The notes beneath the pieces are model-generated. The model did no database searches, was not told the origin of the DNA, and worked only from the letters and a program-made list of their open reading frames with translations. The position numbers and the translations under genes were made by a program. From an uncultured Bacteroidales bacterium (lineage in GTDB: Bacteria; Bacteroidota; Bacteroidia; Bacteroidales; UBA932), in the NCBI GenBank assembly GCA_934678915.1, contig CAKUSF010000014.1, positions 1-27,883 on the forward strand: a DNA stretch of 27,883 nucleotides, given 5' to 3'. How positions within the stretch are numbered: the first letter of the stretch is position 1; every line of letters begins with the position of its first letter. Shown one piece after another: positions 4,476 to 27,538 of this stretch.

Positions 4476-6026
4476 ATGCTCCAATGGATTCTCACAGTCT
4501 TGTACGGGCTCCTGATTCTCAGCGTATTCACCATCATTTTGGTTGATCGAGGAGATTCAGGAAGGAAATTCGCGTGGCTGCTTGTCATCGCAGTGCTTCC
4601 AGTGATCGGTCTGGCCCTCTACCTAATGTTCGGCATCAACTACCGGCATCACTGGATCTTCAACCGACGGCATCAAAGGTATAGGGACATCTTCGAAGCC
4701 GGGACTACACCTGAACTGAACAGAATCCTTTTCGGTCACGACAACGAGGCACAAATCCGCGAAGAATTTCGCCCCTTAGCCAGACTGCTCGGGGCTGAGA
4801 GCTACCCTTCGGTCACTGGCGGTAACGATTTGGAAATCATCACAAACGGGCAGCGCAAATTCGACTTACTCTGCAAGGATATTCTTGCTGCCAAGGAATC
4901 AATTCATATTGAATATTTCCATTTTGGCAACGACAAAGGCAGCAAGGCCATCAAACAACTTCTTATGCAGAAGGCACATGAGGGAGTCAAAGTTCGCTTT
5001 CTGTACGAGAACATCGCCAATTTTCCAATTGCATCCGCCTACTACAACGACATGAGGAAAGCCGGAGTGGAGGTCGTCAAATTCACCAATCCAAGGATGC
5101 ATGTCCTAGATCTGGCGACAAAACTCAACTACAGGAACCACAGAAAGATTGTGGTAATTGACGGGAAGATCGGCTACACTGGTGGCATGAACATCAACGA
5201 CCACTATTTCCGTCTTTGGCGTGACACCCACATGAGGATCACTGGTGACGCTGTGGCCGTACTCCAGTACACATTTCTAGACTCATGGCTGACTGGTGGC
5301 GGCACGATTGACAAGGCGATGATCGACTTCTATCCGATGGCCAAGAAGTCCACTACGGTCACTGAGGCACCACATTCGGTCACTGAGCCTGTCGAAGTGA
5401 CTGAGCCTGTCGAAGTGACCGTGCCTGTCGAAGTGCCCGATGAAATCGACTTCCACGCCACACACCCGATCCTAAAAGACAAGTTGGTGCAGATTGTCCC
5501 TGACGAGCCCGACCTTCCTCTCCCAATCCTACAGATGAGCTACGAATGGGCCCTCCAACACGCCAAAAGGTACATCTACCTTCAAACCCCTTACTTCGTT
5601 CCGACTGAGCCGGTTATGGACGCACTCAAGACAGCTGCACTCTGCGGAGTCGATGTCCGTTTAATGCTTCCTGAAGTAGCCGATAATCTTCTGATGCGCC
5701 CGGCCAATCGGGCCTACTACGAAGAGGCTCTTCAAGCTGGTGTAAGAATATTCCTGCGCCAAGGAGAGTTCATTCACGCCAAGACCTTCGTCTGCGATGA
5801 CTACCTCTCTAGCATCGGCTCCGCCAATCTAGACTTCCGCAGCTTCGCAATCAACTACGAAGTCAACGCCTACATCTACGATGAACAGACCGCAATAATG
5901 AACAAAGGAATATTCCAGTACGACCTCCGCCAATGCCATGAGCTGACACTGGAGGAATGGAGCGCCCGCCCTTGGCACTCCCGCATCCTCGAAAGCCTAA
6001 TGCGTCTCTTCGCTCCACTACTGTAG
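4476..6026 (+). CDS. cls: Cardiolipin synthase with repeat-derived insert
   Basis: This membrane enzyme of the phospholipase D superfamily condenses two phosphatidylglycerols to cardiolipin. The 516-residue protein has two N-terminal membrane segments (about 2-20 and 33-52) and two HKD motifs: H222-R-K-IVVI-D and H434-A-K-TFVC-D, each followed by the usual G-G-M-N or G-S-A-N-L-D. Between them, about residues 292-322 hold a low-complexity insert (TEPVEV repeated, then TVPVEV) encoded by near-identical 18-bp units. This insert is not part of the family fold and probably forms a surface loop. The gene follows miaB by 6 bp. A 29-bp inverted repeat starts 8 bp after its stop. Confidence 0.93.
   Translation: MLQWILTVLYGLLILSVFTIILVDRGDSGRKFAWLLVIAVLPVIGLALYLMFGINYRHHWIFNRRHQRYRDIFEAGTTPELNRILFGHDNEAQIREEFRPLARLLGAESYPSVTGGNDLEIITNGQRKFDLLCKDILAAKESIHIEYFHFGNDKGSKAIKQLLMQKAHEGVKVRFLYENIANFPIASAYYNDMRKAGVEVVKFTNPRMHVLDLATKLNYRNHRKIVVIDGKIGYTGGMNINDHYFRLWRDTHMRITGDAVAVLQYTFLDSWLTGGGTIDKAMIDFYPMAKKSTTVTEAPHSVTEPVEVTEPVEVTVPVEVPDEIDFHATHPILKDKLVQIVPDEPDLPLPILQMSYEWALQHAKRYIYLQTPYFVPTEPVMDALKTAALCGVDVRLMLPEVADNLLMRPANRAYYEEALQAGVRIFLRQGEFIHAKTFVCDDYLSSIGSANLDFRSFAINYEVNAYIYDEQTAIMNKGIFQYDLRQCHELTLEEWSARPWHSRILESLMRLFAPLL
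5356..5435 (+). repeat. 18-bp tandem repeat inside cls (REP-like unit)
   Basis: Two identical 18-bp units, ACTGAGCCTGTCGAAGTG, at 5382-5399 and 5400-5417 are followed by a variant (ACCGTGCCTGTCGAAGTG) at 5418-5435. The left flank CGGTCACTGAG occurs twice, at 5356-5366 and 5377-5387. The unit is in frame with cls and encodes T-E-P-V-E-V. The same word occurs inverted, with two differences over 21 bp, at 6146-6166 outside the gene. This looks like a dispersed element that entered the coding region and expanded. Confidence 0.85.
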
Positions 6027-6033
6027 CTGCCAA

Positions 6034-6101
6034 GGCCAAACAAATTCTCCGCCCCGAATTTTGGTAACGTGCAAAATTCGGGGCGGAGAATTTGTTTGGC
6101 C
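6034..6101. repeat. Perfect 29-bp inverted repeat (long hairpin)
   Basis: The left arm 6034-6062 and right arm 6073-6101 are exact reverse complements over 29 bp, with a 10-nt loop (GGTAACGTGC). The arms begin GGCCAAACAAATTCTCC and have a GC-rich middle. It lies between the ends of two convergent genes, cls (stop 6026) and the glutamine synthetase gene (stop 6188), so it could act as a two-way transcription stop. However, neither side has a T-run after the arm, and the perfection and length are more than a terminator needs. A palindromic dispersed repeat is the alternative. Confidence 0.9.
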
Positions 6102-6145
6102 ACCTAAGCGGAAGATTCGCGCTTAGGATCTTCAATGTTTCGGCG

Positions 6146-6166
6146 CTTCGACAAGCTCAGCGACCG
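6146..6166 (-). repeat. Inverted copy of the cls REP-like word
   Basis: Read on the minus strand, this 21-bp intergenic word begins CGGTCGCTGAG and ends TGTCGAAG. It matches 5377-5397 inside cls at 19 of 21 positions. It lies in the short gap between the long inverted repeat and the end of the glutamine synthetase gene. Two copies 750 bp apart, one in a gene and one outside, fit a dispersed repeat family. Confidence 0.7.
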
Positions 6167-6187
6167 GATGGGACGATACTCAGGGAA

Positions 6188-8368
6188 CTAGCTGATGAAC
6201 AGCAGCTCACGGTACTTAGGGAGAGGCCATGTGCGGTTGTCAACGATTTCCTCAAGCTTGTCGATCGGACGGCGGAGGGCGGAGAAGCTCTCGGCTATCT
6301 CATGGTAGGCGACGGCTTTGGCATATTCATCCTCAAGGACATTGGCCTTCTTGCGGGCCTCCACCATTGCGGTAGCCTTCTCGCGGATCTGGTCAACATA
6401 TTTGGAAATGCTCTTGATCAGGTAGATCTCCTCCTTGCACTCATCGGTGCCACCGAACACTTCCTTGCTCAAAGAGACCTCCTTCAGAAGCTTGGACTTA
6501 TATTCAAGGGCCGCCGGGATGATGTGGTTGATCGCCATTCTCGCCATCACGCGCGACTCGATCTGGATCATCTTGCTATAGGTCTCCCACTTCACCTCAT
6601 TGCGGGCCTCAAGTTCTTTCTCTGAATATACTCCCGTCTCCTTGAACATCTTGACCGAAGCCGGATCGGTAAACACCTTGATCATCTCCGGAACGCTGGT
6701 CTCGACATCCAGACCACGCCTCTTGGCCTCGGCCTTCCACTCGTCAGTGTAGCCGTTGCCGTCGAAGCAGACGACATCGATGATTGAGGAGATTATCGGT
6801 TTCAGCGTGTCCATAATGGCCACATTCAAGGCCTTGCCGCTGGCAAGTTCCTTGTCAAGATCTTTCTTGAATGCGATAAGCTGCTCAGCCACAGCGGCAT
6901 TGAGAGTGGTCATCGCACCGGCGCAGTTCGCCAGGGAGCCTACGGCCCGGAACTCGAAACGGTTGCCTGTGAAAGCGAACGGAGAGGTCCTGTTGCGGTC
7001 GGTATTGTCCACGAATATCTCAGGGATCTCCACCAGACCGACGCTCTTGCCTTTCTTGCCGGCGATCTCGATCGGGGTGTCTGACGGAACCTCAAGCAGT
7101 TTGTGAAGCACATCGGTCATCGTCTTTCCAAGGAAGGCGGACACGATTGCAGGCGGCGCCTCGTTGGCGCCAAGACGATGGGCATTGGTGGCGGTGGCGA
7201 TGGAAGCCTTGAGCAGGGCGTTATGCTTCTGAACGGCGGCCAGAACGTTAACGAAGAATGTGACAAACTGAAGGTTCCCCTTCGCGTCCTTTCCAGGAGC
7301 CAGAAGCATTGTGCCTGTGTCGGTTCCGAGCGACCAGTTGTTGTGCTTACCGGATCCGTTCACCCCGTCGAAAGGCTTCTCGTGAAGAAGGACCACAAAA
7401 CCGTGCTTGCGGGCGATCTTGTTCATCAGGTTCATCACGATCTGGTTCTGATCATTGGCCAGATTGGTCTCCCCAAAGATCGGAGCGAGCTCGAACTGGT
7501 TAGGGGCGACCTCGTTATGCCTGGTCTTGAGCGGAATTCCAAGGCGGTGACCGGCGATCTCAAGGTCACGCATGAACTCGGCGACGCGGGTAGGGATGGC
7601 TCCGAAATAGTGGTCGTCCAGCTGCTGGTTCTTGGATGAGCTGTGCCCCATCAGTGTACGGCCGGTGATCATCAGGTCAGGTCTCGCGGCATAGAGGGAC
7701 TCATCGACAAGGAAATATTCCTGCTCCCACCCGAGATAGGAATATACCTTCGAGACAGACTTGTCAAAGAGACGGCAGATAGGGATGGCCGCGTCAGAAA
7801 CGGCCTTGAGGGCCTTCTTAAGAGGTGTCTTGTAGTCCAGAGCCTCACCAGTGTAGGCGATGAACACGGTCGGGATGCAAAGCGTGTCATCCATGATGAA
7901 CACCGGGGATGTCGGATCCCAGGCCGTGTAGCCTCTGGCCTCGAATGTGGCGCGGATGCCTCCGTTAGGGAAAGAGGATGCGTCAGGTTCCTGCTGCGCG
8001 AGGGACTTGCCGTCGAAAGTCTCGATGACACCTCCCTTACCGTCGTAGTCGATCAGGGAGTCGTGCTTTTCCGCGGTTCCCTCTGTCAGAGGCTGGAACC
8101 AGTGGGTCACATGGGTCACATGGTGCTCCATCGCCCACTCTTTCATTCCCCTGGCGACTCCGTCGGCGGTCACCCTATCCAGTGCCTTACCGTTGTCAAT
8201 GCAGTCAAGGAGCGCATTCAAAGTCTTGGCGTCCAAGTACTTGTGCATCTTCGGACGGTCAAAGACCAGTTCTCCGTAGTAGTCGGAGGTCTTGCCCTCA
8301 GGGCGTTCAGCCGGAACAGCCTTCTTCTCGAAGGATTCCCTTACCAGATCAAATCTGTCAATGCTCAT
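6188..8368 (-). CDS. glnN: Glutamine synthetase type III
   Basis: This enzyme makes glutamine from glutamate, ammonia and ATP in the cytosol. The 726-residue length is typical of the large type III family (about 700-730, against about 450 for type I). It opens with the type III N-terminal domain (HKYLDAKTLNALLDCI; HVTHWFQPLTEGTAEKHDS). The catalytic core has HNEVAPNQFELAPIFGE and, from residue 337, NGSGKHNNWSLGTD. The C-terminal helical extension carries the long charged helices of this family. The start at 8368 gives the expected MSIDRFDLVRESF. The upstream 100 bp (8369-8470) are AT-rich, with TACCTTTA on the minus strand at 8384-8391 as a weak -7 candidate. Further upstream are a terminator-like hairpin and a possible leader or small RNA. 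It converges on cls. Confidence 0.97.
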   Translation of the reverse strand: MSIDRFDLVRESFEKKAVPAERPEGKTSDYYGELVFDRPKMHKYLDAKTLNALLDCIDNGKALDRVTADGVARGMKEWAMEHHVTHVTHWFQPLTEGTAEKHDSLIDYDGKGGVIETFDGKSLAQQEPDASSFPNGGIRATFEARGYTAWDPTSPVFIMDDTLCIPTVFIAYTGEALDYKTPLKKALKAVSDAAIPICRLFDKSVSKVYSYLGWEQEYFLVDESLYAARPDLMITGRTLMGHSSSKNQQLDDHYFGAIPTRVAEFMRDLEIAGHRLGIPLKTRHNEVAPNQFELAPIFGETNLANDQNQIVMNLMNKIARKHGFVVLLHEKPFDGVNGSGKHNNWSLGTDTGTMLLAPGKDAKGNLQFVTFFVNVLAAVQKHNALLKASIATATNAHRLGANEAPPAIVSAFLGKTMTDVLHKLLEVPSDTPIEIAGKKGKSVGLVEIPEIFVDNTDRNRTSPFAFTGNRFEFRAVGSLANCAGAMTTLNAAVAEQLIAFKKDLDKELASGKALNVAIMDTLKPIISSIIDVVCFDGNGYTDEWKAEAKRRGLDVETSVPEMIKVFTDPASVKMFKETGVYSEKELEARNEVKWETYSKMIQIESRVMARMAINHIIPAALEYKSKLLKEVSLSKEVFGGTDECKEEIYLIKSISKYVDQIREKATAMVEARKKANVLEDEYAKAVAYHEIAESFSALRRPIDKLEEIVDNRTWPLPKYRELLFIS

Positions 8369-8462
8369 AATTTGTCTATTTGTTAAAGGTATTATATTTC
8401 CTTAAACTATATATTGTGTTTTCAAAACCATCTATCAAACCCTCCAGTACAAAGCCACACTT

Positions 8463-8498
8463 AAAAAGGAAGAAGGCTGATCCGTCAGGACCAGCCTT
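8463..8498 (-). terminator. Hairpin with T-run upstream of glnN (terminator or attenuator)
   Basis: On the minus strand, AAGGCTGGTCC (8498-8488), loop TGAC and GGATCAGCCTT (8483-8473) form an 11-bp stem with one G-U pair, followed by CTTCCTTTTT. In plus-strand RNA the same position would be an A-C mismatch, so the stem favours the minus strand. It lies about 95 bp before glnN and about 330 bp after the stop of the next upstream minus-strand gene, which has its own hairpin. It may therefore end a separate small transcript or attenuate glnN. Confidence 0.65.
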
Positions 8499-8688
8499 TC
8501 ATTTAAACCATAATATGCTTTTGTAATGAATATGCCGTCAGGCTGGAAGAGCGGCACACACGAAAGCGTTCAGGACCTGAACATTCTGGCTCTGAAATCC
8601 CTGCTGGAACTGCTGCTGTCGGTATGTGTGGGCTTCGAGTATCATTCTCTTGAAATTTTGATGGCGCAAGTTATGAAATCAATTCTGA
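8463..8688 (-). ncRNA. Candidate structured small RNA or glnN leader
   Basis: A minus-strand TATCTTTG box at 8700-8693 is followed by about 190 nt without a convincing ORF, and then by the hairpin plus T-run at 8498-8463. Several distant segments of the minus-strand RNA can pair into a rod: UUUCAU near the 5' end with AUGAAA just before the terminator, AAUGA with UCAUU, GAAG with CUUC, and CACACA with UGUGUG. At the tip is GUUCAG-GUC-CUGAAC. Size and rod shape recall 6S-type RNAs, but I cannot identify a family. The alternative is an attenuated leader of glnN. Pairings were found by eye. Confidence 0.4.
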
Positions 8689-8692
8689 ACCA

Positions 8693-8700: not shown

Positions 8701-8720
8701 TTTTTTGACTTTATCGGTTT

Positions 8721-8808: not shown

Positions 8809-8819
8809 GTTGAGGGAAA

Positions 8820-8851: not shown

Positions 8852-10328
8852 CTGGTAATCTCGTATAATCATCTATCCTGATATAATCCATGCCTCCAAG
8901 CCTAATCTGGCTGTCGTTGCCACCGTCTAGGAAGTCATCCCCCACGAAAAGAATCTGGTCAATAGTGTAGCCCTTCTCTTCCGCATAGGACATCACAGCA
9001 TCAAACTTGTTGTACCGTTTAGGAGTGATGTCGAAAGAGGTCGTTCCACCGATGAACACGGAATAATCCTTGAATATCTCACTGACCTCCGGGAACATGG
9101 CACGCCTGCGGATCTTATCCGGATCGAAAGACAATTTGTCCGCTTTGTCCGCCTTCGTGCCCAGAAGACCGAAAGTCACCATACCGGACTCGTGGAACTC
9201 AAGAGGCTCTCCCTTGTAGTCCGTGTAGCCATATTTCTTCCTAAGATAGTCGCAGTTTTTCTGGAAGAATTTTCTATCAATAGGAGCCTTCTCTTCCCTA
9301 ACCATCTTGAATTTACCATCTACAATGCGGCTCTCCTCCATCCCATAGTTACCAAGAATGGTGATCGGATATTCACCCATCTGCTTGTAGATCCTCGCAC
9401 AATTGCCACCACCTGCCATGATTATCTCATAACGCTTGGCCAATGTGTCCAGAACCGCCTTGTTGGCAGCTGTCAATGGAGTTTTGTGCTGTGTCAGAGT
9501 TCCGTCCAAGTCAAAGCAGATCAACTTCTTCTCCTGCTTCCATCTTAGTTCGCGGATTGAATCCATCAGACGCTTCATTCCTTGAGGTTGGTCGGTCGAA
9601 ACGTAGGTCACACCGTGTCTCATCGCGAAATCAGCGAGGTCATAGCTATTCACTGGCCAGAGAACCGTCTGAAGACCAGCAGCATGAGCCTCATCGAGGA
9701 AATGAGCGGAATTGATCACCACATTATAATTATAAGACACACCGGCATAGCCCCTGTCCTTAAGCTCTTTCACTGAATATGTCTTCCTTGACGTGATCGG
9801 AATCACCTCAGCGCCTGGATGAAGGCGAAGGACCTCATCGCAGAGATGCTCGCTGAAAGAAATGAAGCAAACCTGATCGTACATATTCATTTCATCACAA
9901 AGAGCAATTACTTTTTCCGCCAACTGAGTCTCCCTTGCAGGGGTCGGATGGGACTTCAACTCCAGGAACAGCTTCAAAGCGGAAGTTTTCTTCGCTTGGG
10001 TGAAATATTCCCTCAATGAAGGAATATGATCACCGTTCGGAAGAGTGCAGCTCTTGACGGTAGCATAGTCCAGTTTCTGAATATCCTTGAACTTCGTTCC
10101 CGGAATCATCGGACCATGCAGAATCACGAGCGAATCATCCGTGGTGAGATGGACATCCAATTCAACGCTCTCGACATCAAGTTTCTGAGCACCTGAAAGG
10201 CTAGTCAATGTGTTTTCGAAAGATCCCGGATGGGCATAGAACCCCCTGTGGGACATGATTTTGGTCTGTGCAGGAAGCAGCCCCGCGCAAAGCAGTGAAA
10301 TCACTGCAGCAAGAATGTACTTTTTCAT
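8829..10328 (-). CDS. Exported glycerophosphodiesterase fused to PMM-like HAD phosphatase domain
   Basis: This 499-residue protein has two domains behind a signal peptide (residues 1-20, no good lipobox). Residues 22-265 form a GDPD TIM barrel with the expected metal and catalytic residues: H27-R28, E38-N39-T40, E56-x-D58 and H71. It should cleave glycerophosphodiesters to glycerol-3-phosphate and an alcohol. From about residue 268 a HAD domain begins with DLDGT (273-277) and has AGGGN, GGTTSFDITP and VGDDFLDGGND. The last two match the eukaryotic-type phosphomannomutase branch (HAD-IIB), not ordinary bacterial Cof phosphatases. The HAD part could dephosphorylate or isomerise a sugar or polyol phosphate; the substrate is unknown. 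A minus-strand TAATTTTG box (10340-10333) lies only 4 bp from the ATG, which would give a nearly leaderless mRNA. It is divergent from mraZ. Confidence 0.85.
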   Translation of the reverse strand: MKKYILAAVISLLCAGLLPAQTKIMSHRGFYAHPGSFENTLTSLSGAQKLDVESVELDVHLTTDDSLVILHGPMIPGTKFKDIQKLDYATVKSCTLPNGDHIPSLREYFTQAKKTSALKLFLELKSHPTPARETQLAEKVIALCDEMNMYDQVCFISFSEHLCDEVLRLHPGAEVIPITSRKTYSVKELKDRGYAGVSYNYNVVINSAHFLDEAHAAGLQTVLWPVNSYDLADFAMRHGVTYVSTDQPQGMKRLMDSIRELRWKQEKKLICFDLDGTLTQHKTPLTAANKAVLDTLAKRYEIIMAGGGNCARIYKQMGEYPITILGNYGMEESRIVDGKFKMVREEKAPIDRKFFQKNCDYLRKKYGYTDYKGEPLEFHESGMVTFGLLGTKADKADKLSFDPDKIRRRAMFPEVSEIFKDYSVFIGGTTSFDITPKRYNKFDAVMSYAEEKGYTIDQILFVGDDFLDGGNDSQIRLGGMDYIRIDDYTRLPEKLEFLF

Positions 10329-10453: not shown

Positions 10454-10906
10454 ATGATAACATTCATCGGAGAATATTCAGGAAAAATTGACGACAAGGG
10501 AAGAGTTGTGTTCCCTTCGCCGTTCAAGTCCTTGATGCCTACCGATGGTGATCAACGGTTTGTCATCAAGAAGAATATCTTCGATGACTGCCTAGAAATG
10601 TACACCTTCGAGGAGTGGGAACACCAATCGGAGGAAGTTAAATCCAAACTGAATATCTTTAATCGCGCTCACGATGCTTTCTGGAGAGAGTACATGCGTG
10701 ACCGGGCAATAGTCGAACCTGATGCAAAGCTCGGACGCATCTCAATTCCTAAGAAGCTTCTGGAATCAATTGGTGTAACGAAAGAGGTGGTCTTTTCGGG
10801 CAACGATTACAAGATTGAGATCTGGGCCAAGGACAAGTACGAAGCCAGCGCGATCTCCAAAGAGGAATTCTTGAATATTGCCGGACAGCTGTCTCAGGAG
10901 AGATAG
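10454..10906 (+). CDS. mraZ: MraZ, transcriptional regulator of the dcw cluster
   Basis: This 150-residue protein is built of two AbrB-like swapped-hairpin halves. Each carries the conserved motif: K-I-D-D-K-G-R-V-V-F-P near residue 11, and D-A-K-L-G-R-I-S-I-P near residue 90. MraZ forms ring oligomers that bind direct repeats upstream of mraZ and in known cases represses the operon. It is the first gene of the dcw operon, with four TGGAA repeats and a TAACTTTG box upstream. Its stop codon TAG is part of the ribosome binding site of rsmH, 11 bp before the rsmH start, so translation may be coupled. Confidence 0.96.
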   Translation: MITFIGEYSGKIDDKGRVVFPSPFKSLMPTDGDQRFVIKKNIFDDCLEMYTFEEWEHQSEEVKSKLNIFNRAHDAFWREYMRDRAIVEPDAKLGRISIPKKLLESIGVTKEVVFSGNDYKIEIWAKDKYEASAISKEEFLNIAGQLSQER

Positions 10907-10917: not shown

Positions 10918-11874
10918 ATGTCAGAATACCACACACCAGTGATGCTTGACGAGAGCATTTCCGCTCTTATCACTAATCCATCAGGAACTTACGCCGATGT
11001 CACATTCGGAGGCGGTGGTCACACCGCCGAATTACTTTCACGCTTAAACGAAGACGGTCACGTCATCGCCTTCGATCGTGACAGCGACGCAATCAGCAAT
11101 AGGATAGACGACCCTCGCCTGACAATGGTACGGGCCGATTTCCGGTTCATACACAATTTCGTGCTAAACGAGGCGCACGAGACCCAAGACGTAATTCTTA
11201 GGGAAAAACTCTCAAACGGTCTCGACGGCATTCTTGCAGATCTAGGAGTGTCTTCCCACCAGTTCGACACTGCGGAAAGGGGCTTCTCGTTCAGGTACGA
11301 TGCTCCTCTAGACATGAGGATGAACCGAGATGGAGGGAAAACAGCCGCAGATGTGATCAATGAATATTCAGGAGAAGACCTCGAAAGGATATTCCGCATC
11401 TATGGCGAGGTCGAAAATGCTCGGAAGGTAGCCCAACTGATTGTCTCCGCAAGGGACAAAGGCAGCATCGGAACTACCGGTGAGCTCGACGAGGCCATCA
11501 AAGCCGCTCTTCCTAAATTCGCTGAACACAAATACCTTGCAAAGGTCTATCAAGCCTTGAGAATCGAAGTCAACCACGAGATGCGCTCTTTGGAAAAATT
11601 CCTTGAAGGTGCGGTTGATTCTCTTAGGCCGGGAGGAAGGTTGGTCGTGATCACTTATCACTCCCTTGAGGACAGAATGGTCAAGAACTTCATCAAGGCC
11701 GGGAACGCGGACGGGAAGGAGGAGAAGGACATGTTCGGGAATATTCATGCCCCGCTTAAGGCAGTGAACCGCAAGCCTATCCTGCCTAAGGAAAATGAGA
11801 TAGCCGCCAACACCAGGGCAAGAAGCGCCAAGTTGAGAGTAGCGGAGAAAATCGACGGAGGGAAAAGCCTATGA
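10918..11874 (+). CDS. rsmH: 16S rRNA (cytosine-1402-N4)-methyltransferase
   Basis: RsmH (MraW) methylates N4 of C1402 in the ribosomal P site using SAM. The 318-residue protein has the N-terminal HTPVMLDE signature, the SAM-binding GGGGHT at 31-36, ILADLGVSSHQFD in the middle, and GGRLVVITYHSLEDRMVKNF toward the C-terminus, all diagnostic for the family. Its place after mraZ is the classic one. The start is supported by an AGGAGG site. Its stop overlaps the start of the FtsL-like gene by 4 bp (ATGA). Confidence 0.97.
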   Translation: MSEYHTPVMLDESISALITNPSGTYADVTFGGGGHTAELLSRLNEDGHVIAFDRDSDAISNRIDDPRLTMVRADFRFIHNFVLNEAHETQDVILREKLSNGLDGILADLGVSSHQFDTAERGFSFRYDAPLDMRMNRDGGKTAADVINEYSGEDLERIFRIYGEVENARKVAQLIVSARDKGSIGTTGELDEAIKAALPKFAEHKYLAKVYQALRIEVNHEMRSLEKFLEGAVDSLRPGGRLVVITYHSLEDRMVKNFIKAGNADGKEEKDMFGNIHAPLKAVNRKPILPKENEIAANTRARSAKLRVAEKIDGGKSL

Positions 11875-19996: not shown

Positions 19997-21146
19997 CATG
20001 GAGCACACGGCATTGAGAGTCATAATCAGCGGAGGCGGCACAGGAGGACACATCTTCCCGGCTGTGTCAATCGCGAACAAACTTAAAGAGCTGAATCCAG
20101 AGACGGAGATTCTGTTCGTTGGAGCTGAAGGCAAGATGGAGATGGAAAAGGTCCCTGCTGCCGGGTACAAGATCGTAGGGCTGCCAATCGTAGGATTACA
20201 GCGCCAGCTGAACCTGAAGAATGTGCTCAACGACCTCAGTGTACCGTTCAAGGTTGTGGCAAGTTTGTTCAAGGCAAAAAAGATCATACGGGAATTTAAG
20301 CCGCAAGTAGCAATCGGAGTCGGGGGTTATGCAAGTGCTCCCCTGCTTTGGGCGGCCACAGGAATGCACATCCCGTCACTGATCCAAGAGCAAAATGGCT
20401 TCGCAGGGCTGACAAACAAGAAGTTGGGGAGCCGGGTACAATGCATCTGCGTAGCCTACGAAGGAATGGAACGCTTCTTCCCGGCTGACAAAATCGTCAT
20501 GACAGGAAATCCAATCAGAAGCATAATAGTTCCCGCGACTCCGAAGATGAAAGAAGATGGGGTAAAGGAATATGGTCTTGACCCCTCCAGAAAGCACATT
20601 TTCATCGTGGGCGGAAGTCTTGGAAGCAGCCGTTTCAATCAGGTCATGAAGAAATGGATAACGGACGGATGCAAAGGGCTTGACGGAGTTGATGTCCTCT
20701 GGCAATGCGGAAAGTACTACAAGCCCGACATCGACAGATTTATGGCAGAGGAGCGAGAGAAGAACCCAGAAGCGCTTAGGAATATTCATCATTCAGATTT
20801 CATCGGGCGGATGGACCTCGCCTACGCAGCTGCTGACGTTGTGATTTCGCGCTCAGGAGCAAGTTCGGTTTCCGAGTTGTGTGCTGCTCACAAGGCCGTG
20901 ATATTCATCCCTTCACCTAACGTTGCCGAGGACCATCAGACCCACAACGCCATGGCTTTGGTAAGGAAGGATGCAGCCTTGATTGTCAAGGATTCCGAGG
21001 CAATGGAGAAGATGATCCCCACTGCACTTGAATTGCTTAAAGACTCGAAGCGGATTTCAGTGCTTGAGGAAAACGCAGGTAAGATGGCCCTGCCGGATGC
21101 GGCAGGAAAGATTGCAGAAGAGGTTTACAAGTTGATCAACGGTTAG
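19989..21146 (+). CDS. murG: Lipid II synthase (UDP-GlcNAc transferase)
   Basis: MurG adds GlcNAc to lipid I on the cytoplasmic face, giving lipid II. The N-terminal glycine-rich loop GGGTGGHIFPA, VGVGGYAS-type and QEQN motifs, the second GGSLGSS loop, and ISRSGASSVSEL near the UDP-GlcNAc site are all present. I place the start at 19989 (MNNMEHTALRV, 385 residues), overlapping the ftsW stop by 8 bp; an ATG at 19998, 1 bp after that stop, is equally likely. The in-frame ATG at 19926 would add an unrelated extension inside ftsW. murC follows after 2 bp. Confidence 0.96.
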   Translation: MNNMEHTALRVIISGGGTGGHIFPAVSIANKLKELNPETEILFVGAEGKMEMEKVPAAGYKIVGLPIVGLQRQLNLKNVLNDLSVPFKVVASLFKAKKIIREFKPQVAIGVGGYASAPLLWAATGMHIPSLIQEQNGFAGLTNKKLGSRVQCICVAYEGMERFFPADKIVMTGNPIRSIIVPATPKMKEDGVKEYGLDPSRKHIFIVGGSLGSSRFNQVMKKWITDGCKGLDGVDVLWQCGKYYKPDIDRFMAEEREKNPEALRNIHHSDFIGRMDLAYAAADVVISRSGASSVSELCAAHKAVIFIPSPNVAEDHQTHNAMALVRKDAALIVKDSEAMEKMIPTALELLKDSKRISVLEENAGKMALPDAAGKIAEEVYKLING

Positions 21147-21148: not shown

Positions 21149-22513
21149 ATGTCAAAATATTCAAAGATTTATTTCATTGGCGTTGGTGGCATCGGTATGA
21201 GCGCCATCGCAAGATACTACAAATTCAAAGGCTATCCGGTCGCTGGCTATGACAGGACGCCTTCCGAGTTGACTCATGCCCTCGAAAAGGAAGGAATCGA
21301 CGTTCATTACACTGATGACCCGGATTATATTCCTAAAGATGTCGCTTCAACTCTGGTTGTTTACACTCCGGCAATTCCTGAGGATCTTAAAGAGCTTGTC
21401 TATGTCAAGGAACACGGCTACACGCTAGTTAAGAGATCACGCATGCTAGGAGAATTGGCCGAAGGGCAGACTTGCCTGGCTGTGGCCGGTACTCATGGAA
21501 AGACGACAACCAGCACTCTAGTTGCCCACATCCTGACCGAAAGCGGGAAAGGCTGTTCTGCATTTCTAGGCGGCATTTCCAAGAACTACGGTACGAACCT
21601 GCTGACCAGCCACACTCCGACAATCGTTGCCGAAGCCGATGAGTTCGACAGGTCTTTCCTCCAGCTTCGTCCAGCGATTGCAGCAATAACTGCCATGGAC
21701 GCTGACCACCTTGACATCTATGGCACACTTGAAGAGTACAAAAAGGCTTTCAAAGCTTTTGCAGCACAAGTAAGCCGCAGGCTAATCGTCAAACTTGGAT
21801 TGGACATCACTCCAGAAGACACGAAAGCTAAAATCCTCCATTACAGCTATGATGATCCGACAGCCGACTACTATGCAGTCAACTCGAAACCGGATGAGGT
21901 CGGGCACTACATTTTCGATCTGGTTCATCCTGAAGGCGTGATCGAGAACATCAGAGTCGGAATCCCAGGCTGGGTCAATGTCGAGAACAGTGTGGCTGCG
22001 GCTGCTATCTGTCTCAGCCATGGCGTCTCCCCGGAAGATGTCAAGGAAGCGATAGGGACATATTCAGGAGTTAAGCGACGTCTGGACGTGCACCTCAACA
22101 CCACTCACCTTTCCTACATTGATGACTACGCGCACCATCCAAAGGAATTGGCCTCAGCGATTTCATCGATTAGAGGAATATTCCCAGGAAGGAAGCTCAC
22201 CGCAATCTTCCAGCCGCATCTGTTCACTAGAACAAGAGACTTCGCTGAGGATTTCGCGGCAGCGTTGAGCAAAGTTGACAAACTCATCCTTTTGGACATC
22301 TATCCGGCCAGGGAAGAACCGATTCCAGGCGTAACTTCCGAAATCATATTCGACAAAGTGACAGCTCCGGAAAAAGTACTGCTGAAAAAGGAGGAGCTCA
22401 TGTCATACCTTGAGAATGAGCCAATTGATGTTTTGGCTACATTCGGAGCCGGCAACATCGACCGTTTCATCACCCCGATAACAAATCTTCTCGAAGACAG
22501 GCTTAAGAAATGA
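21149..22513 (+). CDS. murC: UDP-MurNAc:L-alanine ligase
   Basis: MurC adds the first residue, L-alanine, to UDP-MurNAc. The 454-residue protein shows the N-terminal GVGGIGMSAIA nucleotide-sugar loop, the P-loop GTHGKTTT (114-121; the His is typical of MurC), EADEFDRSFLQL, DADHLDIY, DDYAHHPKE, and FQPHLFTRTRDF. Together these distinguish it from Mpl and the other Mur ligases. It starts 2 bp after the murG stop and overlaps ftsQ by 4 bp (ATGA), so murG, murC and ftsQ are probably translationally coupled. Confidence 0.97.
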   Translation: MSKYSKIYFIGVGGIGMSAIARYYKFKGYPVAGYDRTPSELTHALEKEGIDVHYTDDPDYIPKDVASTLVVYTPAIPEDLKELVYVKEHGYTLVKRSRMLGELAEGQTCLAVAGTHGKTTTSTLVAHILTESGKGCSAFLGGISKNYGTNLLTSHTPTIVAEADEFDRSFLQLRPAIAAITAMDADHLDIYGTLEEYKKAFKAFAAQVSRRLIVKLGLDITPEDTKAKILHYSYDDPTADYYAVNSKPDEVGHYIFDLVHPEGVIENIRVGIPGWVNVENSVAAAAICLSHGVSPEDVKEAIGTYSGVKRRLDVHLNTTHLSYIDDYAHHPKELASAISSIRGIFPGRKLTAIFQPHLFTRTRDFAEDFAAALSKVDKLILLDIYPAREEPIPGVTSEIIFDKVTAPEKVLLKKEELMSYLENEPIDVLATFGAGNIDRFITPITNLLEDRLKK

Positions 22514-23286: not shown

Positions 23287-23290
23287 ATAA

Positions 23291-24895
23291 ATGAATATGG
23301 AAGAGAGATACATAGCATCCGTTGACTTGGGAACATCCAAACTGGCAGTGTGCGTGGCCAAGGTCACGGAGCAGAATGTCGAGGTGATCTACTACAAGGA
23401 ATCGCCTTCGCTTGGGATACGCTACAGCTATGTCCTGATTCCAGGAAAAGTCAAGACCGAATTGAGAGCCGCGATTAGCGAAGCGCAGCAATCGCTCCGA
23501 ATCAAAATCCAGCAAGTGATTGTTGGACTGCCGCGCTGGTACGTGCGTCAGGAAACGGCCTCGGCCAGCATGACAAGGCCAGAGCCGGACGACTTGATTC
23601 AAGAAAGCGAGATTCGCGCTCTGAAATCCATGGCTCTGGAGTCTTACCCATTGGAGGACTCAACCAAAGAGGTAATCTATGGCGCTGTAGCTCAATCATT
23701 TTCCACAGAAGACTGCTTCAATGAGCCTGAGAACGACATCATCGGAATGGCCGCTGAAACCCTCGAAGGCAACTTCAAAGTGTTCATCGGGAACCGGAGA
23801 TATTCCTCAAACATCGACAGCGTGTTCAACGATTTGGGAATAGCCATCGCCAAGAAATATTTCACGCCGGGAATCACTGCACGCGCTGTGCTCAAATCAG
23901 AGCAGATGGAGAACGGGGTCGCTCTGATCGACATCGGAGCCGGAGTAAGTTCCGTCACCATATTCAAAGACAAAATCATGCGGTTCTACGCTGCAATTCC
24001 TTTCGGTGGAAATAGCGTGACCAACGACATCAAGTCTGAATGCAACTTTTCCTACGACCTTGCTGAGAACATCAAAAAGGCCTACGGAGCCTGCATGCCA
24101 AACAAATTGTCCTCACTTGGGGAAAAGTCCATCCAAATCGTTGACGAGGACGGGAACGCCACTGCACAGGTCTCAGTCAAGTACATCTCTGAAATCATCA
24201 CTGCGAGGATGAAAGAAATCATCGAAGCCCTCCTATTCAAAATCCAGGAAAGCGGCTACGCCTCCGAAGATGACCTCAGGGCAGGAGTTGTCGTGACCGG
24301 TGGAGGAGCGGAACTCGTGAATTGCGCCAACTTCATCAAGGAGTTGTCAGGATATTCAGTAAAAATCGGGCGTCCAAGGAGGTCCTTCTCTTGTGAAGGG
24401 TGCGCTGAGGCAAGTGAAGCTAGTGCGGCAACGTCCATGGGAATGATACTTTCTGCAAAAAGTGACCGCTCGTTGAATTGCGTGAATGAGGCTGTCTCCC
24501 GGCTTGACAATCCAATCGTCACTGAAAGAGTCACACCTCAGGAAGAAAGTGCAACTCAAATTGCAGAAGCCCCAGATCCTTCAACAAGCCCTCAACAGGA
24601 AGAGCCATCAAAGAATGAATCAAATGAGGTCGAACTTGATCCATATTCACAAATTGAGAATCCAGTCATTGAGGCAGCGGTAGCGGCAGCTCAAGAAGAA
24701 GATGAAGGATCCGGAGTATTCGACAAGCCGACTGAAAAGGAGATAAAAGAATATAACAAGAAAAAAGCTCAGGAGAAAAAAGAGAAGAAGGAGCACAAGA
24801 AACTGTTCAATTTCACTTGGACCAAACACATTCTTGGCAAAGTAGGAGAGACCGTTGGAGGTCTGTACGATGAGATGAATAACGAAGAGGTTTAA
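23291..24895 (+). CDS. ftsA: Cell division protein FtsA with long acidic C-terminal extension
   Basis: FtsA is an actin-like ATPase that tethers FtsZ to the membrane. Visible parts are phosphate loop 1 (D12-L-G-T-S-K), the 1C domain, phosphate loop 2 (D214-I-G-A-G-V-S-S) and the adenosine motif VVTGGGAEL. The conserved fold ends near residue 395. About 135 further residues follow: a Pro/Glu/Ser-rich linker, then a Lys/Glu-rich helix (KKKAQEKKEKKEHKK), then a final segment FNFTWTKHILGKVGETVGGLYDEM that may be the membrane-targeting helix. At 534 residues it is much longer than the roughly 420 of E. coli FtsA. The start is ATGAATATG; ftsZ follows after 12 bp. Confidence 0.96.
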   Translation: MNMEERYIASVDLGTSKLAVCVAKVTEQNVEVIYYKESPSLGIRYSYVLIPGKVKTELRAAISEAQQSLRIKIQQVIVGLPRWYVRQETASASMTRPEPDDLIQESEIRALKSMALESYPLEDSTKEVIYGAVAQSFSTEDCFNEPENDIIGMAAETLEGNFKVFIGNRRYSSNIDSVFNDLGIAIAKKYFTPGITARAVLKSEQMENGVALIDIGAGVSSVTIFKDKIMRFYAAIPFGGNSVTNDIKSECNFSYDLAENIKKAYGACMPNKLSSLGEKSIQIVDEDGNATAQVSVKYISEIITARMKEIIEALLFKIQESGYASEDDLRAGVVVTGGGAELVNCANFIKELSGYSVKIGRPRRSFSCEGCAEASEASAATSMGMILSAKSDRSLNCVNEAVSRLDNPIVTERVTPQEESATQIAEAPDPSTSPQQEEPSKNESNEVELDPYSQIENPVIEAAVAAAQEEDEGSGVFDKPTEKEIKEYNKKKAQEKKEKKEHKKLFNFTWTKHILGKVGETVGGLYDEMNNEEV

Positions 24896-24907
24896 CGAGA
24901 AAAGATT

Positions 24908-26188
24908 ATGGGCGAGATGATTGACAATTTTGACATAGATGTGGCTGATTTCAGCCCGATAATGACACCAATCCAGTCAATGATTAAAGTCATTGGTGTT
25001 GGAGGTGGAGGATGCAATGCTGTTAACTACATGTACCGAGAGAAGGTGGAAGGATGCAGTTTCATCGTCTGCAACACCGACCGGCAGGCTCTTGACGGGA
25101 GCCCAGTGCCTGTCAAGATCCACATCGGAGAGAATGCCCTCGGAGCCGGGACCGATCCGGCAAAGGGGCGCAAGGCTGCATTGGAAGCTCACGATCAAAT
25201 AGATAAAGTAGTCCTTGGCAACGACACCCAAATGCTGTTCATCACTGCCGGAATGGGTGGCGGCACAGGTACGGGAGCAGCCCCAATCATCGCCAAGATG
25301 GCCAAGGACAAGGGAATCCTGACCGTTGGAGTGGTGACTCTTCCTTTTGAAAACGAAGGCGAAAATGCCATGTCCAGAGCCATTGACGGCATCCACGAGC
25401 TCGTGAAGAACGTGGACAGTCTTCTTATTATCAACAATGAGAAACTCTACGATTTCTTCGGCAGCCATCTCGTCCATGAGGCTTTCCCGAAAGCAGATGA
25501 AGTCCTCTCCACCGCAGTCAAAGGCATCACGGAGATCATCAGTCGCCCAGGCTACATCAACGTGGACTTCGAAGACATCAAAACCATGATGCGTAACAGC
25601 GGAATGGCTCTAATGGGATGTGGGACCGGAACCGGCAAAAACAGGATAGATGATGCAGTGAAAGGTGCATTACAGTCACCGCTTCTGAACGACTTTGACC
25701 TCAAGACAGCCAAGAGTCTGCTCATCAACATCACCTGCGGCAAAAATGACAAGGGCCTGACAATGGACGACCTGTCAGAAATCAACCATAAAATTTCTGA
25801 ATATACCGGCAATGTCAAGAAATTCAAGACCGGACTAGTCTGGATGACAGATCCCGAAATCGGTGACAACATCCAAATCACTGCCATAGCCACAGGCTTC
25901 AAGGTCAACGATTTGAGAAAAATTGCCAGAGCCGATCTCGGTAATCTGATCATCATCGGTAAAGACTTCACATTCGAGAAGCAATCGCTCCCGGAACCGG
26001 AGGAAGAAATAAACCTCACTGGCAAGGTCAAGATCATCGGCTACAACACTTCCGACAATGTGAAGCGTTTCCATTTCGATCCGGACAAGAAGCCGGCCTT
26101 GGCAGTGGAACACGGCCAGAGCCTTGCCGAACTGGAACGAATTCCAGCCATCAAGCGCGCTGACCGTCAGGAAAAAGAAATGGTGTAG
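24908..26188 (+). CDS. ftsZ: Cell division GTPase FtsZ
   Basis: FtsZ is a tubulin-like GTPase that forms the division ring. The 426-residue protein has the N-terminal GVGGGGCNAVN, the tubulin signature GGGTGTG at 117-123, and the T7-loop NVDFEDI. A variable linker leads to the C-terminal peptide IPAIKRAD (412-419), which resembles the I-P-A-F-L-R-x motif that binds FtsA and other partners. A short tail RQEKEMV follows it. It is the last gene of the dcw operon. It converges with the next minus-strand gene with only 15 bp between stops and no terminator hairpin in the gap, so the transcripts probably overlap. Confidence 0.98.
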   Translation: MGEMIDNFDIDVADFSPIMTPIQSMIKVIGVGGGGCNAVNYMYREKVEGCSFIVCNTDRQALDGSPVPVKIHIGENALGAGTDPAKGRKAALEAHDQIDKVVLGNDTQMLFITAGMGGGTGTGAAPIIAKMAKDKGILTVGVVTLPFENEGENAMSRAIDGIHELVKNVDSLLIINNEKLYDFFGSHLVHEAFPKADEVLSTAVKGITEIISRPGYINVDFEDIKTMMRNSGMALMGCGTGTGKNRIDDAVKGALQSPLLNDFDLKTAKSLLINITCGKNDKGLTMDDLSEINHKISEYTGNVKKFKTGLVWMTDPEIGDNIQITAIATGFKVNDLRKIARADLGNLIIIGKDFTFEKQSLPEPEEEINLTGKVKIIGYNTSDNVKRFHFDPDKKPALAVEHGQSLAELERIPAIKRADRQEKEMV

Positions 26189-26203
26189 GCACCACTTCCA
26201 TTG

Positions 26204-26656
26204 CTAATACATCATGCCATCGAACCAGTCATTGGCCCACTTGTCAGTGATGTCAACTTTCCATTGACCATTCTTTTCTTTATAGATGGTCACAACCTCT
26301 TCCTTGTCGTTGATCTTTCCCGTAACGTAGGCAACATCAGTGTTAAAATAGAGGTCATCGAATTCCCTCCTTTCGGAAAGAATCTTGACTTTGACGTCAC
26401 CGGACATCTTAGCTTTTTTCAATTCCGCTGGAAGGACCTCCTTTCGAGCTGACTCAGCAGTCATGGCAAGTTCGGACAAAAACGCTCCATCGAACTTGAT
26501 GTAATCCGCAACCTTGATGTCTCCTGAATAGTATAATTTAAAAAACTGTTCGGCAACTCCTGATGGAGTTGCCGGGTACTCTTCCTTTGGCGTTGCAGAA
26601 CAAAGCACACAAGCCAAACTGGTAAAAGCAAACAGTATCGAGATGAAACGCTTCAT
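26204..26656 (-). CDS. Exported small protein, DUF4878/NTF2-like
   Basis: This protein has about 150 residues when started at 26656 (MKRFISILF), 2 bp after the stop of the upstream gene; an in-frame ATG at 26683 would overlap that gene. The N-terminus is a signal peptide (hydrophobic ISILFAFTSLACVLCSA). The mature part, with A-E-Q-F-F-K-L-Y-Y-S-G-D early and a final run of beta strands ending in G-Q-W-K-V-D-I, follows the pattern of DUF4878-like proteins with an NTF2-like fold. Function is unknown. It pairs with the membrane-protein gene upstream, so both probably share a transcript that runs toward ftsZ. Confidence 0.6.
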   Translation of the reverse strand: MKRFISILFAFTSLACVLCSATPKEEYPATPSGVAEQFFKLYYSGDIKVADYIKFDGAFLSELAMTAESARKEVLPAELKKAKMSGDVKVKILSERREFDDLYFNTDVAYVTGKINDKEEVVTIYKEKNGQWKVDITDKWANDWFDGMMY

Positions 26657-26658
26657 AA

Positions 26659-27291
26659 CTAAACAGACGCGATCTTCTTCCAACCGATGATTATCATTAT
26701 AAATGCAATGATGTCAAGGACACCTCCGATGAAACCACCGACAACAGGGATGAGGCCTATCACTGCTCCGATTATCGAAAGAATCATTGCTGTGTAGAGT
26801 TTAGAAGCACCCTCGCGAGCAATTGTCGGGAAAGTTTGCGAGTTTCTTAGAGCAGAGTAGCCTAAAAGCATCATGATGCAAGAGACAATGACACAAATTC
26901 CTTTGAGAATCCATCCAGCAAGTGGAATAAGTCCCAACACATAGCCTACAATGCTGATTATCGTAGCGGTGAAGAGTTTCTGCACGGCATCCTTATCTTG
27001 GATATTCACCACATTCCTAAAATCCTTCAAACCGAGGAAGAACATGACATAGCCGGCAATTATCGCCAATGAGATGATGGCATTGAAAGCGACTCCACCG
27101 CCTCCACCATTACCGCTGAGCATGGACACTCCAGAAGATATCGAAATAATAGGACTTACAACGTTAGCAACGACCCCGCATAGTGAATAGATCAAAACAC
27201 CGTAATACATCTGTTTTGTCACCGCAGTCCAAGCGTTTCTGTTGAAAGGCTCAAGCGGGCCTTGGTTCTGGAAATTGTTTACTGTTTCCAT
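26659..27291 (-). CDS. Membrane protein built of three hairpin repeats, unknown function
   Basis: This 210-residue protein has a polar N-terminus (about 25 residues, rich in N and Q) and about six hydrophobic segments. I do not recognise a characterised family. Two stretches are clearly homologous: about 107-149 (ATIISIVGYVLGLIPLAG ... LLGYSAL) and about 167-208 (AMILSIIGAVIGLIPVVG ... IIIGWKKI). A third, more diverged unit begins at about residue 29 (GVLIYSLCGVVANVVSP) and carries a glycine-rich loop (GNGGGGG). Each unit looks like a membrane hairpin followed by a short polar link. The downstream gene for an exported small protein starts 2 bp after its stop, suggesting a functional pair. Confidence 0.65.
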   Translation of the reverse strand: METVNNFQNQGPLEPFNRNAWTAVTKQMYYGVLIYSLCGVVANVVSPIISISSGVSMLSGNGGGGGVAFNAIISLAIIAGYVMFFLGLKDFRNVVNIQDKDAVQKLFTATIISIVGYVLGLIPLAGWILKGICVIVSCIMMLLGYSALRNSQTFPTIAREGASKLYTAMILSIIGAVIGLIPVVGGFIGGVLDIIAFIMIIIGWKKIASV

Positions 27292-27538
27292 GGTAAATAG
27301 TTTTTTTGTACGACCCTCGCTCTATCAGGCCATTGGTTCTAATACAAAAGTGTAGAGCTAATTCCGTCCACTCAAATCAGCTTGACGAAAACACTTTAAA
27401 TGTTGATGTTTGAGAAAACTCCCCAAAAACGTTACAAAAATAAGAAATAATCTGCTCTATAGCAACAGCTACTTTGGCAAAACTCAGAGAATATTCATCT
27501 ACAAAGACAGCAACTCATTACTTAGTAATCCTAAAAGG

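Follow-up and report, generated by a model that had tools for sequence, protein, structure and literature searches.

Why should one stretch of DNA from an uncultured Bacteroidales bacterium, 27,883 nucleotides long and here called the window, carry the palindrome GAATATTC 11 times when about 0.4 copies are expected? An earlier note, made from the letters alone, had counted these copies and proposed a genome-wide DNA-level signal. All 11 were found where it had placed them (Table 1), and its expectation agrees with 100 dinucleotide shuffles of the window (mean 0.39, maximum 3). The excess of the half-sites is also real, although their number is 78 (40 GAATAT and 38 ATATTC) and not about 66 as first counted. 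Second-order and third-order Markov models predict 11.6 and 22.6, respectively, so that the excess stands in the third-order test which the note had named. Genes hold 75 of the half-sites, as compared with 20.4 after synonymous codon shuffling and 23.6 after a shuffle that preserves the protein sequence, codon usage and the dinucleotides at codon junctions; codon-level shuffles thus fall short of the observed counts, as expected from the note's view that codon or amino acid bias would not be enough. Each of the three codon phases is over-used, in sense and antisense alike, and half-sites are present in both plus- and minus-strand genes. The statement that both strands are involved is nevertheless true of half-sites only, since all ten genic copies of GAATATTC lie within plus-strand genes, the eleventh being intergenic. 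The signal does occur outside genes, with three of the 78 half-sites intergenic according to the gene list and five according to an ORF proxy.

Table 1. GAATAT sites in the window. Pair, GAATATTC, consisting of two overlapping opposed GAATAT sites; single, one GAATAT site.
Site	Position	Strand
Pair	5746..5753	
Pair	5908..5915	
Pair	10472..10479	
Pair	11362..11369	
Pair	11739..11746	
Pair	14571..14578	
Pair	16898..16905	
Pair	19933..19940	
Pair	20780..20787	
Pair	22176..22183	
Pair, intergenic	27489..27496	
Single	859..864	+
Single	1544..1549	-
Single	2219..2224	+
Single	2314..2319	+
Single	2452..2457	+
Single	2625..2630	-
Single	2949..2954	+
Single	3053..3058	+
Single	3068..3073	+
Single	3925..3930	-
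Single	4096..4101	-
Single	4879..4884	-
Single	4911..4916	+
Single	6323..6328	-
Single	6500..6505	-
Single	6624..6629	+
Single	7013..7018	+
Single	7715..7720	-
Single	7740..7745	+
Single, intergenic	8528..8533	+
Single	9072..9077	+
Single	9369..9374	-
Single	9775..9780	+
Single	9883..9888	-
Single	10005..10010	-
Single	10022..10027	+
Single	10079..10084	+
Single	10573..10578	+
Single	10651..10656	+
Single	10873..10878	+
Single	11389..11394	-
Single	13882..13887	+
Single	14253..14258	-
Single	15125..15130	-
Single	15856..15861	+
Single	17160..17165	+
Single	17950..17955	-
Single	18517..18522	+
Single	18635..18640	-
Single	19532..19537	-
Single	20568..20573	+
Single	20901..20906	-
Single	21157..21162	-
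Single	21327..21332	-
Single	22060..22065	-
Single	22346..22351	-
Single	23293..23298	+
Single	23800..23805	-
Single	23960..23965	-
Single	24352..24357	-
Single	24643..24648	-
Single	24749..24754	+
Single	25799..25804	+
Single	27002..27007	-
Single	27545..27550	+
Single	27833..27838	+

The genome-wide test was run on the genomes of relatives, the window's own genome being represented by the window alone. Among 28 relative genomes, chosen from 80 loci, six contain 272-511 copies of GAATATTC and the remaining 22 contain 13-57; a scan of 199 genomes of the family added a further high genome, G156. With the junction-preserving synonymous shuffle, GAATAT is the top-ranking hexamer in all seven high sets, the window's 75/23.6 (observed/expected) comparing with 407/140.6 in G002, 772/362.6 in G003, 292/139.7 in G005, 374/189.7 in G011, 246/150.4 in G019 and 131/59.3 in G156, while in all five low sets it ranks between 45 and 1446. 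Its first place in G019 is by a narrow margin (z 7.8): unrelated words go up to z 7 in the same genome and to z 8 in G069. The proposed genome-wide signal is therefore borne out in the relatives, and the comparison with related Bacteroidales that the note had suggested finds it concentrated in one clade. The eight high members, window included, all fall within a single clade of nine with 100% support, in which the ninth, G004, lacks the excess; the high or low state changes twice on the tree. The strong form is found only in this clade of uncultured gut Bacteroidales, across whose genomes GAATAT is repeated thousands of times. A mild excess is seen outside it with the simple codon shuffle (15/5.6 at the G015 locus, 41/20.7 for L009 and L029 together), and the stricter, junction-preserving shuffle gives 203/163 for 16 pooled low loci, so that the border of the clade is a matter of degree.

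The repeated unit is GAATAT, an asymmetric hexamer bordered by graded and likewise asymmetric flank preferences, rather than the palindrome on which the earlier note had laid its emphasis. GAATATTC is simply two GAATAT sites overlapping head to head. Its ratio never exceeds the product of the two half-site ratios in any of six high sets (11.3 against 14.8 in the window, 7.1 against 12.5 in G002, 5.1 against 6.1 in G003, 6.0 against 6.2 in G005, 3.0 against 5.3 in G011 and 3.6 against 3.6 in G019), and the palindrome was rejected as the unit on these grounds. Codon-controlled flank preferences are asymmetric and lie mostly within positions -7 to +7, giving a footprint of about 20 bp: T is preferred at -1, G or T at +1 and C at +2/+3, with G avoided at +3, and the preference at -1 differs between lineages. 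The 18 one-mismatch cores of TGAATATG, when summed, show no overall enrichment (101 v 128.7 in G002, 238 v 229.3 in G003), a result whose power is limited by the weak excess; exceptions are GAAATATG (16/5.5 in G002, 30/14.7 in G003) and ATGAGTATG (12/1.2 in G003, Markov model). The excess of GAATAT extends to nearly all frames, both strands, genes and non-coding DNA, and coding and intergenic densities are similar overall. No strand or gene-direction bias was seen: TGAATATG counts on the two strands are 649/651 in G002 and 742/746 in G003, and the fetched pieces are roughly balanced, the genomes being fragmented and their replichores unmapped. This disfavours a polar mark, whether Chi-like or for segregation, the latter being one of the note's suggestions. 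Chi and KOPS are polar signals and, like GAATAT, over-represented short asymmetric words, from which it differs in its lack of such bias. Chi is mentioned in PMC4390886.

Retention of the sites was scored where amino acids are identical, with permuted words as the control. At such synonymous positions GAATAT is kept far more often than comparable words: 18 of 22 sites are retained between the window and L001 (permuted words 34 of 139; Fisher p 4e-7), 12 of 15 between the window and L002 (p 4e-6), 12 of 14 between L002 and L001, and 11 of 20 between the window and G156 (p 1e-4), permuted-word retention being 0.15-0.35 in these comparisons. Retention is weaker to the most distant high member (4/11 for the window and L019). 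Synonymous changes inside GAATAT fall below expectation in three pairs, all of which include G003 (9.5 v 21.5, 5.5 v 11.2 and, with little effect, 11 v 14.3 for G003-G005); the formal p, computed for the single pair G003-G011, is about 0.005. Such long-term retention at orthologous positions makes it improbable that a simple mutational bias is at work, and the mutational context effect raised in the note is disfavoured in its simple form.

On balance, a sequence-specific protein or enzyme that binds DNA probably acts chromosome-wide in one Bacteroidales clade, with GAATAT as the strict core of the site that it recognises. The candidate site would span about 20 bp, the core together with its graded flanks; a trans-acting protein would read it, and selection or molecular drive would keep the sites in place. 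As a recognition site, we place GAATAT in the same general class as the HIP1 of cyanobacteria or uptake sequences. Its likeliest role, put forward tentatively, is that of a self-DNA mark, with a bias in DNA transfer or repair maintaining the thousands of sites; our argument is that fitness selection acting separately on each of so many sites would have to be very weak. Chromosome organisation and then a HIP1-like methylation target follow closely as alternative roles.

One specific form of self-mark, which we consider rather doubtful, is modelled on the DUS of Neisseriaceae and the USS of Pasteurellaceae: a competence receptor would favour DNA bearing GAATAT together with its flanking context, and the sites would be spread and maintained by the preferential uptake of DNA from kin. 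As with DUS and USS, the word is asymmetric, with a strict core and graded flanks, is equally frequent in both orientations and has dialect-like lineage differences, here at -1. Again as with those systems, several genes of often-transferred type are poor in the word: in G001, G003, G005 and G011, which are closely related, 21 methyltransferase genes (some of them mutual orthologues) hold 45 sites v 76.1 expected, GNVR/AAA_31 capsule-kinase-like genes hold 1 v 8.5 (G003) and 0 v 4.2 (G019), and a SNF2/ResIII helicase in G156 holds 0 v 7.9. Ten annotated site-rich genes include those for MutS, PriA and a Mg-chelatase protein, which we take to be ComM. Helicase-domain genes are enriched in G003 (59/38.0) and G011 (67/46.6) and marginally in G019 (32/22.2), but this bias is not general, with none seen in G002 (21/19.2) or G156 (54/58.4, or 40/33.4 once three genes of restriction or SNF2 type are set aside). 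Other genes run against the pattern: methyltransferases in G019 are not site-poor (15 v 11.6), a Cas3-like gene there is site-rich (10 v 3.8), and the core gene murD is among the poorest (0 v 2.0 in G003, 0 v 2.2 in G002). The ComEC domain is present in 18 of 18 genomes tested, high and low, and hence does not discriminate. DUS and USS also differ in having a stronger excess and a core of 9-12 bases instead of six, and a receptor for GAATAT is hypothetical. For self-recognition, six bases make a short core, which counts against a self-mark role. One-mismatch forms of known uptake sequences are enriched, according to PMC1939737, and those of GAATAT are in general not.

Slightly less likely is that an abundant nucleoid or architectural protein, bound to GAATAT every ~350-630 bp, would space the chromosome. 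The even spread of sites over genes (dispersion 0.63-1.24) is consistent with this, as are the similar coding and intergenic density, the lack of polarity and the footprint. However, the distances between sites hardly depart from random (CV 1.0-1.2), the proposal comes without a candidate protein, and here too selection per site over thousands would, we infer, have to be very weak.

A methylation target resembling HIP1 is unlikely. An orphan methyltransferase would mark GAATAT, perhaps at the fifth-base A or at a C on the opposite strand, and methylation-dependent repair or function would maintain the word. C5 methyltransferases (PF00145) are indeed present in five of six high genomes and in one of the ten others searched, but in the five families searched (G156 left out) no methyltransferase group was found in all six high genomes. 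G002, which like the others may be incomplete, has no match over the cut-off in these families, and the C5 enzyme of G019 is just 24-29% identical to the C5 enzymes compared from G001, G003, G005 and G011, a comparison that leaves out the group of ~431 aa present in those four. Density and spread of GAATAT are like those of HIP1 and its variants, for which PMC4390886 gives about 500-2500 per million bases. The same paper describes HIP1 (GCGATCGC) and alternate HIPs in cyanobacteria as short words of very high copy number, present across most of a lineage but scarce in some of its members, with flank extensions in some genomes; GAATAT is likewise in excess genome-wide, in coding and non-coding DNA, across its lineage. 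HIPs, however, are palindromes tied to orphan methyltransferases, whereas GAATAT is an asymmetric AT-rich hexamer, and it occurs in another phylum.

Slightly more unlikely is a bias of mutation or repair, by which the GAATAT context would be unusually stable or often produced, without function. Strand symmetry, presence in nearly all frames and in non-coding DNA, and a clade-wide trait missing in one member would all fit, as would the depletion of one-mismatch neighbours in the TGNNNNNNG frame of G002 at core positions 2 (6 v 16.1) and 6 (4 v 14.6). Yet the depletion covers all three bases at a position, not a single substitution type, most one-mismatch neighbours are undepleted in G003, and the context would have to reach from -7 to +7. 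Furthermore, retention is 50-86% among the window, G156, L002 and L001 against 15-35% for permuted words, and the close-species synonymous rate inside the word is cut only to 0.44-0.77, a time dependence that purifying selection fits better than a low mutation rate does; a context-dependent low mutation rate for GAATAT is unlikely rather than impossible. Finally, a codon-pair, amino-acid or compositional artefact is very improbable: codon use absorbs part of the raw excess, raising the expectation from 11.6 (second-order Markov) to 23.6, but the junction-preserving shuffle, with GAATAT first in every high set, refutes it for the sets tested, and the excess is also seen antisense, in nearly all phases and in non-coding DNA.

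Genome-wide iterated words have so far been chiefly HIP1, uptake sequences and Chi/KOPS. To return to the self-DNA mark, it is quite possible, if short of probable, that the clade bears a Bacteroidota self-recognition watermark, in which the asymmetric GAATAT sites, thousands in number and with flanks that form lineage dialects, would be read by a putative undescribed receptor or DNA-binding protein distinct from both the uptake system of Neisseria/Haemophilus and the HIP1 methylation system of cyanobacteria. This non-palindromic iterated word in gut Bacteroidales, which has high relatives, a close relative lacking the excess and a retention of sites that can be measured, is a natural system for asking how thousands of sites persist and what reads them. 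GAATAT could also help to separate native genes from those that these uncultured genomes have gained recently.

The excess of GAATAT in the window was assessed by direct counting and by shuffling. All 11 copies of the 8-bp palindrome GAATATTC listed in the earlier note lie where it placed them, against 0.39 expected and a maximum of 3 in 100 dinucleotide shuffles. Its estimate of about 66 half-sites was right in pointing to an excess but wrong in its figure, since the window contains 78 (40 GAATAT and 38 of the reverse complement, ATATTC). The window, which we take to be the Bacteroidales cell-wall and division (dcw) cluster with its neighbours, the gene names being read from the open reading frames rather than from a database, has 75 sites within genes where synonymous codon shuffling predicts 20.4. 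The expectation rises to 23.6 when dinucleotides at codon junctions are also preserved, the strictest shuffle applied, which stops short of full codon-pair preservation. Under this shuffle GAATAT ranks first among all hexamers in all seven sets with a strong excess (the window and genomes G002, G003, G005, G011, G019 and G156; z 8 to 22) and only 45 to 1446 in the five sets without it (‘low’ sets). G019 is the weakest of the seven, with z 7.8 for GAATAT, compared with z 7 for unrelated words in the same genome and z 8 for such words in the low genome G069. Both the sense and the antisense orientation show the excess, as do nearly all phase classes, with sense phase 2 in G002 (24 against 24.1) as the exception; density in non-coding DNA is broadly like that in coding DNA.

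Further hexamers deviate under the simple codon shuffle, among them TGTCAA in G069. With junction dinucleotides kept, TGTCAA drops off the top list and other words persist at z 7–8. The low genomes G069, G202 and G208 have over-represented hexamers of their own under codon shuffles (TGTCAA, ACGGCA/CGGCAT, CTGTCC/GACAGG), of which ACGGCA remains at z 7 under the junction-preserving shuffle. A depletion of CATATG seen with a third-order model is probably spurious, through an expectation that is set too high.

Genome-wide counts come from relatives of the window rather than from its own genome. With MurD as query, 80 related loci were retrieved, from which 28 genomes were picked. GAATATTC totals 488 in G001, 450 in G002, 511 in G003, 426 in G005, 464 in G011 and 272 in G019, and 13–57 in each of the remaining 22; a reversed control word occurs 2–55 times per genome across the 28. 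Among 199 family genomes, the word TGAATATG is most frequent in G003 (1488), G011 (1318), G002 (1300), G156 (709), G069 (558) and G019 (478), the other 193 having 20–383. G156 is truly a high genome; in G069, G202, G057 and G208 GAATAT is not among the leading words. Mild excess is visible beyond the clade, with 15 sites against 5.6 in the G015 locus and 41 against 20.7 in loci L009 and L029 together (simple shuffle), and 203 against 163 in 16 pooled low loci (junction-preserving shuffle).

A tree of 26 rows, built from nine concatenated proteins, places all eight high rows in a nine-member clade with 100% support, with two changes of state; an 81-row tree lacking G156 agrees. The ninth member is the low genome G004 (locus L004, GC about 60%), in which a screen for a replacement word found no outlier exceeding those of other low sets. 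We prefer one gain and one loss of the excess, gain and loss being indistinguishable from the tree.

The over-represented unit is GAATAT rather than the palindrome emphasized by the earlier note. As the table shows, GAATATTC ratios nowhere exceed the product of the two half-site ratios. In the window TC follows GAATAT in 22 of 78 cases, where base frequencies taken singly at +1 and +2 would give about 18%, so that the double site may still be slightly preferred. Summed over the one-mismatch cores in the TGAATATG frame, counts are 101 against 128.7 in G002 and 238 against 229.3 in G003. Enriched exceptions are GAAATATG (16 against 5.5 in G002, 30 against 14.7 in G003) and, in G003, ATGAGTATG (12 against 1.2, Markov model); one-mismatch neighbours in G002 are depleted at core positions 2 (6 against 16.1) and 6 (4 against 14.6).

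Codon-controlled flank preferences, from pooled rows that are not independent, lie mostly between -7 and +7, with a few positions outside, such as +9, deviating slightly. T is favoured at -5, -4 and -1, A at -2, C at +2 and +3, and either G or T at +1; G is avoided at -3, +3 and +6. Since these preferences are not symmetric around the palindrome centre, they argue for asymmetric recognition. The -1 preference varies with lineage, being for T in G002 (2.48), the window (1.64) and G003 (1.47), for T (1.30) and G (1.22) in G156, and for G in G019 (1.36). The G003 sample also has 10 instances of sites overlapping at offset 4 (GAATATATTC), and a start-to-start distance of 9 is likewise seen 10 times.

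Palindrome excess over codon shuffles, and retention of window sites in relatives (L, locus; G, genome)
Measure	Sequence	Observed	Compared with
GAATATTC ratio; GAATAT x ATATTC product	window	11.3	14.8
GAATATTC ratio; GAATAT x ATATTC product	G002	7.1	12.5
GAATATTC ratio; GAATAT x ATATTC product	G003	5.1	6.1
GAATATTC ratio; GAATAT x ATATTC product	G005	6.0	6.2
GAATATTC ratio; GAATAT x ATATTC product	G011	3.0	5.3
GAATATTC ratio; GAATAT x ATATTC product	G019	3.6	3.6
Sites retained; permuted words retained	window to L001	18/22	34/139
Sites retained; permuted words retained	window to L002	12/15	25/132
Sites retained; permuted words retained	window to G156	11/20	29/197
Sites retained; permuted words retained	window to L019	4/11	9/108
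Sites retained; permuted words retained	window to L004	0/9	4/106
Sites retained; permuted words retained	window to L015	2/7	10/94

Retention in the table was scored as GAATAT or ATATTC of the window kept in a relative where amino acids are identical, with permuted words as control. Conversely, where one genome lacks the word at positions at which identical amino acids permit it, the other has it in 9/32 (window and L002), 12/32 (window and L001) and 5/22 cases (L002 and L001); at word-less positions with differing amino acids, the figures are 2/33, 8/35 and 19/45. Presence being this infrequent where the partner is without the word, the identity of sites is inherited, beyond density alone, and shared favourable flanks could contribute. 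Among near relatives (94–97% identity, dcw loci), in-word synonymous third-position changes number 9.5 against 21.5, 11 against 14.3 and 5.5 against 11.2. Modest short-range protection combined with strong long-range retention is more readily explained by purifying selection or drive than by a low rate of mutation.

The two strands carry GAATAT roughly equally in the fetched pieces, and equally genome-wide in G002 and G003. No orientation bias was found relative to gene direction, and a polar signal was rejected on these counts. Spacing is near random (CV 1.0–1.2), with dispersion among genes of 0.63–1.24. The idea that dense clusters mark an origin or hub was rejected after inspection of all cluster loci except L156, four of five: the cluster in L257 falls inside a 620-aa frame, and the other three, assessed by eye, looked ordinary.

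Among the genes with few sites are capsule-kinase-like genes (G003, G019), SusC-like and SusD-like genes, an Mrr-type endonuclease and a SNF2/ResIII helicase in G156. The 21 methyltransferase genes counted in G001, G003, G005 and G011, some of them not independent of one another, have 45 sites against 76.1; the count omits the duplicate loci L183 and L172 and any match without a locus. There are counter-cases: G019 methyltransferases are not poor (15 against 11.6), a Cas3-like gene in the same genome is rich (10 against 3.8), and murD, a core gene, has no sites in G003 (0 against 2.0) or G002 (0 against 2.2). One GAATAT-poor gene of the gut Bacteroidales genome G156 (L276:7348-9078) codes for a protein in which Pfam recognises the thiol-activated cytolysin domain PF01289.

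Site-rich genes include those for MutS, PriA and a Mg-chelatase/ComM-like protein, but among the rest are a GDSL lipase and an MBOAT protein. Helicase-domain genes were therefore tested, as 28 genes from 36 matches (excluding L208 and L211, which yielded no usable reading frame, and matches without a locus). They are enriched in two closely related genomes, G003 (59 against 38.0) and G011 (67 against 46.6), and marginally so in G019 (32 against 22.2, partly through Cas3 and the PriA that prompted the test), but not in G002 (21 against 19.2). A replicate in G156 (10 genes from 11 matches, L293 being the same gene as L289) gave 54 against 58.4, or 40 against 33.4 without three restriction- or SNF2-type helicases. 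Being absent in G002 and G156, the bias is not a general trait.

A search for CRISPR arrays, whose spacers might point to phages of the clade, found none that was convincing, only three 3-copy repeats (L015, L106, L109). Around L015:2870 three exact copies of GACCACCTAGGGCAGA recur at 51-base spacing, and the locus has CCCACCTA and CCCTAGGT as its top 8-mers. A small dispersed repeat is suggested in the G002 sample (L113-L123, L158-L166, L002) by 12-mers, for example AGCTGTTTTGAA and AGATTCATAAGA, that occur 5–8 times each. G019 has imperfect GTCACCCC-type repeats adjoining an AT-rich stretch (L110:17581-17760), and GGGGTGACGAAC is among its top 12-mers.

Among the matches listed, no paper reports GAATAT as a bacterial genome signal, most subscription papers lying outside the literature covered. 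Searches for it as a ‘methylation motif’ found none, and as ‘overrepresented’ in a ‘genome’ one maize paper only. Matches listed for GAATATTC are mostly plant and human, with one on colibactin cross-linking; those for uptake sequences in Bacteroidetes never mention Bacteroidetes, and a broader search listed such a word in no title or abstract start.

As to the recogniser, ComEC is no discriminator, its domain being present in 18 of 18 genomes tested (an 18-row ComEC tree was poor, with very long rows, and was set aside). GAATAT as a methylation target gains from the C5 methyltransferases (PF00145) found in five of six high genomes (G001, G003, G005, G011, G019) against one of ten others searched. 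However, across PF01555, PF02086, PF02384, PF07669 and PF00145 no methyltransferase group was found in every one of the six high genomes searched (G001, G002, G003, G005, G011 and G019), and these families were rejected as the sole cause. G002, which may be an incomplete genome, has zero matches above cut-off in all five, and the C5 enzyme of G019 is 24–29% identical to the others compared. Among 39 methyltransferase loci (four sub-cut-off), identity of at least about 70% is confined to G005–G011 (two pairs), G001–G011, G011–G012 and G002–G015, the last among the sub-cut-off matches; the C5 enzymes of high genomes, as compared, are mostly non-orthologous.

Our reading goes no further than a genome-wide recognition site. 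GAATAT would be read in trans by a protein whose footprint is about 20 bp, and for the role of the site we place a mark of self DNA first, a chromosome-organising site second and a methylation target last.
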